Positions 6,410 to 9,344 of a stretch of DNA of 64,000 bases are shown here, piece by piece. The DNA is taken from contig DATMXP010000007.1 of assembly GCA_035561515.1 (NCBI GenBank), forward strand, positions 248,001 to 312,000, written 5' to 3'. Source of the DNA: Terriglobales bacterium. Lineage in GTDB: Bacteria > Acidobacteriota > Terriglobia > Terriglobales > Acidobacteriaceae. The translations under genes were made by a program, and so were the position numbers. Positions within the stretch are counted from its first letter, which is position 1. Every line of letters starts with the position of its first letter. Below the pieces are notes generated by a model. It searched no databases, was not told where the DNA came from, and was given only the letters and a program-made list of their open reading frames with translations.

Positions 6410-7675
6410 GTGAGTATTCTCGCACTGATGCCGGCCTCGAATCTCACCTTGAGCGAAGTGCTCGGTGCCCCGGTCCTGGACTCGACGGGCGCCGTGGCCG
6501 GTCGTGTACGTGAAGTCGCAATCTGTCCGCAGGAAGATCCCGCCCGCATCTCGCTGCTCCTGCTGAAGACGAAACTGGGCACGCGAGCCATCAAGCCATC
6601 CCAAATCCAGCAGATCAACAGCTATGTAAAAGCGAAGGTGCCTCTCGCGGATCTGCCGCCTTATTCGGGGCCCGAAGGCTACTTCCTGCTCGATCGCGAC
6701 CTGTTGGATCAGCAGATCATCGACGTTAACGGCCGCAAGGTCGTTCGCGTCAATGATGTCGAAATCCATGCAGATGCCTCGGCTGACCAGTTGGCGCTCA
6801 AGATCGGCGCTGTCGACGTCGGCGTAAGAGGCTTCGTCCGTCGCATCCTTAAGGGGCTTGTGCCCGGCCCGGCACTGCGCGGTCTGACCCGTCAGATTCC
6901 GCCACGGCTGATCCCCTGGGAGTTCGTGGACCTCATCGAAACCGATCCGGCGCGGCGCGTGAAGCTCAAGATTTCTCACGACAAACTCGGTCAACTGCAT
7001 CCGGCCGATATCGCCGACATCGTTGAAGACCTGTCACCGGCCGAACGCGAAGCCATCTTCGAGACGCTTGATGAAGAAGTGGCAGCCGAGGCGCTGGAAG
7101 AGGTCGAGCCCAAGTTGCAGCGGTCTATTGTCGAGTCGCTCGACGAGGATCGCGTCGCCGACATCGTTGAAGAGATGGACCCTGACGCCGCCGCCGACCT
7201 GCTGGGCGACCTGACGGAAGAGAAGTCCGACGCCATCCTGGAAGAGATGGAGCCCGAGCAGCGCGAAGAAGTGGAGGAACTGCTCGAGCACAAGGAGAAC
7301 ACCGCCGCAGGCCGAATGAACACCGAGTACGTGGCGCTGCATGAGGACGCGACCGCGCAGGATGCCATCGCTGCCTTGCGGATGTTTGAAGGCGATGTGT
7401 CGAGCGTGGTGACGGTGTACCTGGTCGACTTGGAATGGAAGCTGATGGGCGCGGTGCCGCTGCAAAACGTCGCACTCGCTGAAGCAGGCACCAAACTCGG
7501 AGACATCAAGGCCGAGCCACTGGTCTCGTGCAAGCTACATGCACGTGAAAGCGAGTTCACAGAGCTCTTCGATAAATACAATCTGATGTCGCTGCCGGTA
7601 GTAGATGACGATGGCGGACTGGCAGGCGTCATCACTGCCGACGACGTGATAGCCCTGCTGCGACAACAGCAGTAG
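6410..7675 (+). CDS. Soluble PRC-barrel / MgtE_N / CBS-pair protein
   Basis: A 421-residue protein without membrane segments. The N-terminal 160 residues look like two PRC-barrel-like units (LGAPVLDSTGAVAGRVREV and IIDVNGRKVVRVNDVEIHA). A MgtE N-terminal helical superhelix spans about residues 195-300, recognised by repeated ADIVEDLSP, ADLLGDL and EE(V/M) patterns. Two CBS domains finish the protein (about 305-420, ending VVDDDGGLAGVITADDVIALL). In MgtE these cytoplasmic parts sense Mg2+ and gate the channel, but the channel domain is missing. It may regulate another transporter or bind nucleotide or metal. The start is GTG at 6410, or ATG at 6428. Confidence 0.82.
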   Translation: MSILALMPASNLTLSEVLGAPVLDSTGAVAGRVREVAICPQEDPARISLLLLKTKLGTRAIKPSQIQQINSYVKAKVPLADLPPYSGPEGYFLLDRDLLDQQIIDVNGRKVVRVNDVEIHADASADQLALKIGAVDVGVRGFVRRILKGLVPGPALRGLTRQIPPRLIPWEFVDLIETDPARRVKLKISHDKLGQLHPADIADIVEDLSPAEREAIFETLDEEVAAEALEEVEPKLQRSIVESLDEDRVADIVEEMDPDAAADLLGDLTEEKSDAILEEMEPEQREEVEELLEHKENTAAGRMNTEYVALHEDATAQDAIAALRMFEGDVSSVVTVYLVDLEWKLMGAVPLQNVALAEAGTKLGDIKAEPLVSCKLHARESEFTELFDKYNLMSLPVVDDDGGLAGVITADDVIALLRQQQ

Positions 7676-7703
7676 CTCCTCTTTTGTTAGACTCATCTCC
7701 GGG

Positions 7704-8504
7704 ATGGCAATTCGTACGATTTTCACCATGGCAGAAGACTGCGCCGCGGGCGAGAGGCTCGGGTGGCAGGAGTTCGTTCGCGACTACGGGCGCATGACCC
7801 GAACTTTGCTTGAGCACTACTTTCCGGTGCTGAAGCCCGAACTGGACCAGCACGTGGTTGGCGTGTTTCAGCGTGCCCGCGCTGACGAGAATGCGTGGTT
7901 CAAGGGCATCAAGTTCCAGAACGAGCGCGAGTTCATGATGGCGTTCCGTGAGCTTGTGTTTGCCTATGGCCGCATCGCTGCGCGCGTGCCCGTGCCCGAA
8001 CTCTCACTCGACCAGTTCCGCGAGATCGTGAAGGACTTGAACGTGGTGGAGCGCGAGGTGATGTGGCTGTATGTGAAGGGCTACGACGCTCCGCAGATCG
8101 CGCCGATGATGATGAACGCGGAAGCGACCGCCAAAGCAGTGAAGGGAATTGCCGACCAGCGCCTGAAGGACCTGTTTCCGGCCATGACCGCGGACGCATT
8201 CAACGCGTCGGCCCGGTCGCTGATCGAAGCCGCTGAGAAGACTAAAGCCGACGATTGCCTTCCGCTGAAGACCTTCAACAATCTCGTGAATGGCCAGATC
8301 AGTTGGCGGGAACGGGACCTCGCGGAACAGCATATCCGTGACTGCTTCTACTGCGTCGATCACTTTACCGGATTCCAGGAAATGATCCGGATGCGAAAAG
8401 ACACCACTCCGCTTGCCGATGATGAAACGGAGAAGGTTTTGGAGGAGTTGAAGTTGGCTGCGGCAAAGAAGCAGGGCGTACTAGCGAAGCTATTCGGGAA
8501 GTAG
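7704..8504 (+). CDS. ECF-sigma-like protein with C-terminal zinc-binding anti-sigma domain
   Basis: A 266-residue protein of unusual architecture. Residues about 10-90 resemble a divergent sigma region 2 (GERLGWQEFVRDYGRM, then DENAWFKGIKF). Residues about 105-155 resemble region 4 (LNVVEREVMWLYVKGYDA followed by a helix-turn-helix-like MNAEATAKAVKGIADQRL). Residues about 180-225 fit a zinc-binding anti-sigma fold, with C in DDCLPLK and an H-x3-C-x2-C in EQHIRDCFYC. These assignments come from pattern reading and are moderate only. If right, a sigma and its redox- or zinc-responsive inhibitor sit in one chain. It follows the MgtE_N-CBS gene by 29 bases, so the two are probably cotranscribed. 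Confidence 0.6.
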   Translation: MAIRTIFTMAEDCAAGERLGWQEFVRDYGRMTRTLLEHYFPVLKPELDQHVVGVFQRARADENAWFKGIKFQNEREFMMAFRELVFAYGRIAARVPVPELSLDQFREIVKDLNVVEREVMWLYVKGYDAPQIAPMMMNAEATAKAVKGIADQRLKDLFPAMTADAFNASARSLIEAAEKTKADDCLPLKTFNNLVNGQISWRERDLAEQHIRDCFYCVDHFTGFQEMIRMRKDTTPLADDETEKVLEELKLAAAKKQGVLAKLFGK

Positions 8505-8651: not shown

Positions 8652-9344
8652 ATGGCTACCAGTGTCTTACGTCCGAAAAGAAACGGCGAAGCCGCGCGTC
8701 GCGAGACGGAGCGGTTTGAGCAGCGCCTTGGGGAAATTCTCGACCACGCCACCGATGTCTTTTACGAGAAAGGCTACGACGCCGCGTCGATGCGCGACCT
8801 ATCGCGCGCGACCGGAATGTCGCTGGCGGGGCTGTACTACTACTTCGAATCCAAAGAGCGACTGCTGTACCTGATTCAGAAGCACACGTTTGAAACGGTC
8901 GTCCGCAATCTTAAGCAGAAGCTGGAGCTGATCAACGACCCGGAGAAAAAGGTGGAGGTGTTCATTCATAACCACCTCGAATACTTCCTCGCGAACCGAA
9001 AGGCGATGACGGTGCTCTCGCATGAAGACGAGACGCTGAAGAACGAATTCGGCACAGAGATACAGGCCATCAAGCGGGAGTATTACCGGATCGGCACACA
9101 GATTGTGGAAGAGCTTCGCGCGGAGTATGGCGAGCGGTTTGGCGCAGTGAATACGCGCACGGCGGTGGTGACACTGTTCGGGATGATCAACTGGATTTAC
9201 ACCTGGCACAATCCGCGCGTGGATGGTGACGCAAACGCGCTGACGCAGCAAATGTCACAAATTTTTCTGCGGGGCGTGCTGAATCAAGGGACGCCGATGG
9301 GGAATTCGGAATCTAAACCAACCGGACGAAAGCGCCGGGATTAA
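8652..9344 (+). CDS. TetR-family transcriptional regulator
   Basis: A 230-residue repressor-type regulator. Its N-terminal DNA-binding domain (about residues 25-75) contains ILDHATDVFYEKGYDAASM and the recognition helix in GMSLAGLYYYFESKERL. The C-terminal part is the ligand-binding/dimer domain. Similar regulators in other bacteria (FadR, PaaR and related) respond to acyl-CoA esters and control fatty-acid or aromatic degradation genes. The genes directly downstream encode acyl-CoA enzymes, which supports such a role by context. Start ATG at 8652. Confidence 0.88.
   Translation: MATSVLRPKRNGEAARRETERFEQRLGEILDHATDVFYEKGYDAASMRDLSRATGMSLAGLYYYFESKERLLYLIQKHTFETVVRNLKQKLELINDPEKKVEVFIHNHLEYFLANRKAMTVLSHEDETLKNEFGTEIQAIKREYYRIGTQIVEELRAEYGERFGAVNTRTAVVTLFGMINWIYTWHNPRVDGDANALTQQMSQIFLRGVLNQGTPMGNSESKPTGRKRRD

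Follow-up and report, generated by a model that had tools for sequence, protein, structure and literature searches.

A conserved soluble protein of Acidobacteriota with a degenerate sigma-like half and a zinc anti-sigma-type domain

Described systems and the canonical fusion of the same genome

Fusions of a sigma factor to a zinc anti-sigma (ZAS) domain have already been published for the groups ECF48, ECF52 and ECF53, of which SCO4117 is an example; their single chain runs from sigma2 and sigma4 into a ZAS-type domain (PMC8999054). These proteins are described as actinobacterial, transmembrane and functional sigma factors with long extensions. ZAS domains are recognised by H-x3-C-x2-C with an upstream Cys or His ligand, and in many of them zinc is merely structural (PMC4598750). 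The ZAS proteins RsrA, ChrR and RsiW are separate from the functional sigma factors that they target. A degenerate ECF fold is known from PhyR of the alphaproteobacterial general stress response, in which promoter- and core-binding regions are degenerate and which titrates an anti-sigma (PMC8103513); there the gate is a phosphorylated receiver and the partner is NepR.

The protein described here, from a soil bacterium, has 266 aa and is encoded on the plus strand at 7704–8504 (stop codon included) of the window, by which we mean the whole stretch of 64,000 nucleotides that was analysed; the host genome comprises 5.4 Mb in 60 contigs. With ECF48/52/53 it shares a sigma2–sigma4 order followed by a ZAS-type domain, but it has no membrane segment and its sigma motifs are degenerate. 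With PhyR, which is in its structural match list at Z 3.3–4.4 (VIA-align), it shares a degenerate ECF fold within a regulatory protein, whereas its gate would be the putative ZAS domain; a Pfam/NCBIfam search found no receiver domain, and the C-terminal part is of ZAS type. The zinc pattern is that of RsrA, ChrR and RsiW, but here the ZAS domain is fused to its own degenerate sigma-like partner.

Elsewhere in the host genome, a 282-aa protein, L041 (L041:1186-2031, minus strand, equal to G000:C35:138858-139703), is a canonical soluble ECF sigma–ZAS fusion that passes the Pfam cut-offs of Sigma70_r2, Sigma70_r4_2 and zf-HC2. Full-length or nearly full-length relatives of L041 (E 1e-57 or better) occur in about 40 of 100 genomes of the taxonomic family, so that soluble sigma–ZAS fusions are common in this group. 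Fifteen aligned relatives retain DAEDT-Q, WLY..RNRC, GTVRVRLHRARL and the zinc ligands with few exceptions, and hydropathy found a membrane segment in none of the 15. L041 and the window protein are alike in domain order, in length (similar), in C/H-x3-C-x2-C and in having no membrane segment; they differ in that L041 passes those cut-offs and keeps the canonical sigma motifs. Descent of the window family from the L041 fusion was considered and is weakly supported, the match between the two family profiles being weak (P 0.013), and L041 is not a recent parent. As judged by sequence, the window protein represents a degenerate type distinct from the L041 fusion.

Hence, a sigma–ZAS fusion as such belongs to a known type and is even common here, and an earlier note on this DNA went too far in calling such domains normally separate proteins, given the published ECF48/52/53 and the canonical soluble fusion of the host. 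What stands out is a conserved soluble sigma–ZAS chain with a sigma half seemingly unsuited to transcription. For the self-inhibited sigma factor that the earlier note had in mind, L041 is a better candidate than the window protein.

Fold, domains and conservation

The predicted gene is real and under selection, as indicated by dN/dS of 0.13–0.22 in the pairs compared. Its place in the open reading frame list agrees with the homologues, those at 53–68% identity having the common start M1-A2; 20 homologues align from residue 1, with similar lengths except in one that carries inserts. The copy of genome G003 (L007:1504-2472, minus strand, also L013:92-1060, plus strand) has two in-frame inserts, one in the sigma2 helix-3 extension and one in the linker between sigma4 and ZAS. 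Both contain the interspersed palindrome CGAAGCAAAACCGGCTTCG, which is present in 10 copies in G003 (at most one mismatch) and in none in four other genomes searched. As a single protein, the window protein reached no Pfam or NCBIfam family cut-off, matches to PolyG_pol and Terminase_5 being taken as chance, and a PDB sequence search returned no match.

An AlphaFold2 model built with 17 homologues, which replaced a weaker model from five sequences, reached pLDDT 87.9 and pTM 0.86, with pLDDT >90 for residues 11–90. The sigma2-like domain, assigned by this model, VIA-align and residue counts, spans residues 1–95 (7704–7988, plus strand). In VIA-align, sigma2 of E. coli sigmaE, AlgU and SigW match the model at Z 9.0–9.9, a range in which helical models can match by chance, and AlgU and SigW superpose at 2.3–2.6 Å across 85–87 residues; sigmaE aligns with model residues 4–162. 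We keep the sigma call because ranks 1–23 are nearly all sigma factors (sigmaE region 2, AlgU–MucA, SigW–RsiW, SigC and others) and because it agrees with the sequence evidence. Every Foldseek match had E >0.1. The structural case rests on VIA-align ranks and profiles, and the comparison barely bears on the ZAS part.

The sigma4-like helix-turn-helix, assigned by hhalign, model helices and charge and residue counts, spans residues 102–158 (8007–8177, plus strand), with AlphaFold2 helices at 102–109, 114–124, 129–135 and 140–157, the last being the recognition helix. Against own-genome ECFs, hhalign aligned residues 10–165 collinearly across regions 2 and 4 (P 1.7e-5). With an own-genome ECF model, homologues scored up to 17.8 bits and shuffled sequences no more than 11.2, eight of 17 homologues lying above the best shuffle. 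At the Pfam cut-offs of Sigma70_r2 and Sigma70_r4_2 the window protein had no match; below threshold, Sigma70_r4_2 was seen in 7 of 20 members, with a best family E of 0.0029 covering region 4 only. The sigma resemblance is weaker by sequence than by structure, but consistent. An origin from a LuxR-type helix-turn-helix was also considered and set aside: own-genome response regulators match 41 columns only (hhalign, P 0.0039), an HMM control failed to separate members from shuffles, and sigma4 fits better.

The ZAS domain covers residues 185–233 (8256–8402, plus strand), as assigned by invariant ligands, zf-HC2, a profile tested with shuffles and conservation. The Cys and H-x3-C-x2-C pattern pointed out previously is exact (C185-x24-H210-x3-C214-x2-C217), with none of its four ligands varying among 20 homologues, and the C-x24-H-x3-C-x2-C spacing is that of ZAS domains (PMC4598750, PMC7406223). 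A further invariant thiol beyond this motif, Cys13 (7740–7742, plus strand), lies in the first sigma2 helix and is kept in 20/20 and 17/17 homologues; C13, C185, C214 and C217 are the only cysteines of the window protein. A ZAS model built from nine own-genome ZAS proteins gave 12.4–20.6 bits for all 17 homologues, compared with 9.5 for the best of 4,750 shuffled sequences. Pfam zf-HC2 appeared below threshold in 13 of 20 members (best E 0.0073), and none of the 20 passed its cut-off. Comparisons with own-genome ECF and ZAS profiles are significant, and the Pfam sigma and zf-HC2 cut-offs were missed. Read from the whole-protein model, helices of the ZAS region at 188–196, 201–213, 215–233 and 239–248 follow the order of a class I ASD, in which a fourth helix accompanies a three-helix bundle. 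The C-terminal tail (residues 234–266; 8403–8501, plus strand), delimited by predicted secondary structure and conservation, holds two helices, one at 239–248, by order ASD helix 4, and a short one near the terminus at 259–264.

No transmembrane segment was found in the window protein, whose peak 19-residue hydropathy is 0.97 (at most 1.60 in the family); 8 of 9 own-genome ZAS proteins, taken as controls, gave 1.69–2.50. The window protein is soluble as judged by hydropathy. In total, the union of sigma fold and zinc anti-sigma domain that was anticipated from the sequence, here in a soluble chain, finds support in the invariant zinc ligands, AlphaFold2, VIA-align, hhalign, HMMs and hydropathy.

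Mean conservation is 84% in the ZAS domain, 78% in sigma2, 68% in the recognition helix and 57% in the tail, so that ZAS stands first among the domains and the recognition helix ranks with the least conserved parts. This high conservation of ZAS would suit an anti-sigma whose ZAS domain acts in trans on a true sigma factor from another locus, with the sigma-like half as a decoy that masks the ZAS domain and holds it inactive until required; the genome is rich in ECF sigma factors as possible targets. However, no conserved adjoining sigma or anti-sigma gene was seen across the relatives' neighbourhoods, and the tail, with its low conservation, contains ASD helix 4, the determinant of specificity for sigma2 (PMC7406223). 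We regard a trans-acting anti-sigma as distinctly unlikely.

Sigma motifs and the upstream region

Canonical ECF sigma factors carry D, Q and E in region 2.2, Trp and Asn in region 2.3–2.4, and basic residues in the recognition helix, and own-genome sequences served as a further reference for these motifs. Residues at the motif positions were counted in 17 aligned homologues. In region 2.2, the D, Q and E are replaced mostly by T/Q/A/N, A/L/T and A/G, and in region 2.3–2.4 the Trp by A/S/T and the Asn mostly by A. The recognition helix retains T142 and A150, and its basic positions are mostly E/Q, V/T and I/V, with V/T at R(+4) and I/V at R(+7). Its net charge is −2 to +1, compared with +3 to +6 in own-genome sigma factors, for which only true helices were counted and non-helix windows picked up by the regular expression were disregarded. 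The family has an invariant signature of its own, W65-F66, F71-x-N-E-R75-x-F77, R82, F86 and R90.

Motif positions were set by hand in these strongly diverged regions, guided by model helix boundaries, lengths and the structural alignment; a MAFFT alignment of the family together with canonical ECFs put helix 4 in the wrong place and did not enter residue assignment. Helix 3 appears 6–7 residues longer than in canonical sigma factors. Because hhalign places the region 2 stretch differently, with W65 opposite the canonical Trp, the exact region 2 positions are uncertain, and among the motif losses that of the Trp carries the most doubt. Subject to these positions, the motifs that contact core RNA polymerase and promoter DNA appear to have been replaced by family-specific conserved residues. 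Moreover, some own-genome ECFs also lack simple motifs, so that divergence is no proof of lost function. The region 2- and region 4-like segments reported previously hold for the fold, but not for the functional motifs: a sigma fold is predicted with both sigma helices present, whereas the −10/−35 contact residues are not conserved.

Upstream of the gene, an extended −10-like element, TGTTAGACT, lies at 7685–7693 (plus strand) and ends 10 nt 5′ of the ATG. The pattern TGNTANNNT occurs within 45 nt upstream in 11 of 16 homologues, most at −15 to −24, compared with a mean of 0.3 (maximum 3) in shuffles and with 2 of 40 long ORFs of the window. The element is probably the gene's own housekeeping-type promoter, with a near-leaderless start or very short leader. 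One simple ECF-type promoter pattern was tried, and 15 of the 16 upstream regions lacked it. Where the preceding gene ends, a consensus scan gave a terminator-like hairpin followed by CTCCTCTTTT (7655–7675, plus strand), which is weak evidence, with 2 found and 1.2 expected by chance.

These data bear on whether the window protein may be a true ECF sigma factor that inhibits itself and makes unusual contacts with promoter and core, in which zinc loss or oxidation frees sigma2 and sigma4 for RNA polymerase. The sigma2–sigma4 order is complete and the fold follows sigmaE over residues 4–162, sigma2 is under strong purifying selection, and the intact-motif soluble fusion of the same genome and its relatives indicates that this type of regulation is used in the group. 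However, region 2.2 D/Q/E, region 2.3–2.4 W/N and the recognition-helix basic residues are missing family-wide, sigma4 is neutral to acidic, and the gene's own upstream sequence is without the ECF-type pattern. Hence, although a self-inhibited arrangement of the window protein is plausible, the switched sigma regulator proposed earlier is weakened, as core-binding, −10 melting and −35 residues are not conserved and the recognition helix (68%) falls behind ZAS (84%). A genuine sigma factor is possible but rather unlikely, and a protein-binding decoy or switch is more likely than a working sigma factor.

Distribution, neighbourhood and possible mode of action

The protein family is patchily distributed: among 398 genomes sampled from the host's taxonomic family, homologues occur in 19, which belong to 13 of 79 genera and carry one locus each, with extra fragments in a few. 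The relatives with names are metagenome-assembled genomes of Acidobacteriota/Terriglobia. In a sample of the phylum, clear matches were confined to the host's taxonomic family and one distant protein, L019 (258 aa; L019:1147-1920, plus strand), from a genome of another taxonomic family. This very diverged protein aligns with the window family across 225 columns (P 1.9e-8); the four zinc ligands all fall into register, and basic residues are likewise missing from the segment of its recognition helix. A second very diverged protein, L093 (231 aa; L093:1432-2124, plus strand), also from another taxonomic family of the phylum, matches L019 (P 7.5e-9) and keeps the domain order, and zinc ligands are absent from its aligned positions. 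From these two sequences, a wider group seems to be drifting from sigma function and one branch of it also from zinc; L093 argues against zinc being essential across the wider group.

In most relatives the gene lies after a beta-lactamase+NamZ gene, often with a TrbI/Gly-zipper-type gene; some have a SIS-domain (MurQ-like) gene and a MurA-like gene (named by eye) further upstream, and in four a SIMPL gene lies downstream. Only in the window and L085 does the fusion gene instead follow a PRC/MgtE_N/CBS gene. In the window this upstream gene (6410–7675) lacks the membrane part of MgtE and combines a PRC-barrel with MgtE_N and CBS domains. The ORF at 8652–9344 encodes a FadR/FasR-like TetR regulator and is followed by enoyl-CoA hydratase-like, aldehyde dehydrogenase-like and PaaA-like ORFs, three named by eye from sequence; the regulator and these ORFs are probably a separate phenylacetate or fatty-acid cluster.

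Proximity to peptidoglycan-recycling genes in most relatives (beta-lactamase+NamZ, SIS-domain MurQ-like, TrbI/Gly-zipper, SIMPL) may instead indicate a former sigma/anti-sigma fusion that now serves a function apart from RNA polymerase, such as that of a zinc or envelope-linked adaptor, and the further degenerate L093, with its zinc ligands lost, points the same way. However, the neighbourhood differs in the window and in L085, and the strongly conserved ZAS core suggests that an anti-sigma type of contact persists, which leaves a role of this kind improbable.

The explanation that we prefer, tentatively and at somewhat less than an even chance, is a single pseudo-sigma/ZAS chain that serves as a zinc- or thiol-held switch and acts by protein binding, in analogy to PhyR. 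In such a chain, the ZAS domain would bind zinc and, when closed, pack against its own sigma-like domains, as RsrA, ChrR and RsiW do in trans and as in known ECF/ASD complexes (PMC7406223). The chain may open when zinc is lost or when the thiols C185, C214 and C217, perhaps also C13, are oxidised, a step modelled on RsrA (PMC4598750). Either half of the opened chain could then bind a partner in trans, most likely with the sigma-like half titrating a cellular anti-sigma in the way that PhyR titrates NepR (PMC8103513). The outcome would be altered activity of a true sigma factor without promoter recognition by the protein itself. A more specific version, a zinc/thiol-gated sigma mimic acting as a PhyR-like anti-anti-sigma of Acidobacteriota, in which the ZAS domain hides a non-transcribing decoy that titrates an anti-sigma, is speculative and, on present data, unlikely.

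If such a gated mimic does exist, sigma-mimic partner switching would occur outside Alphaproteobacteria, with a redox or zinc gate replacing phosphorylation. In addition, working and non-working (regulatory) sigma–ZAS fusions would coexist in one genome, and the two forms would offer a built-in comparison for testing the effect of an anti-sigma domain on the chain that carries it.
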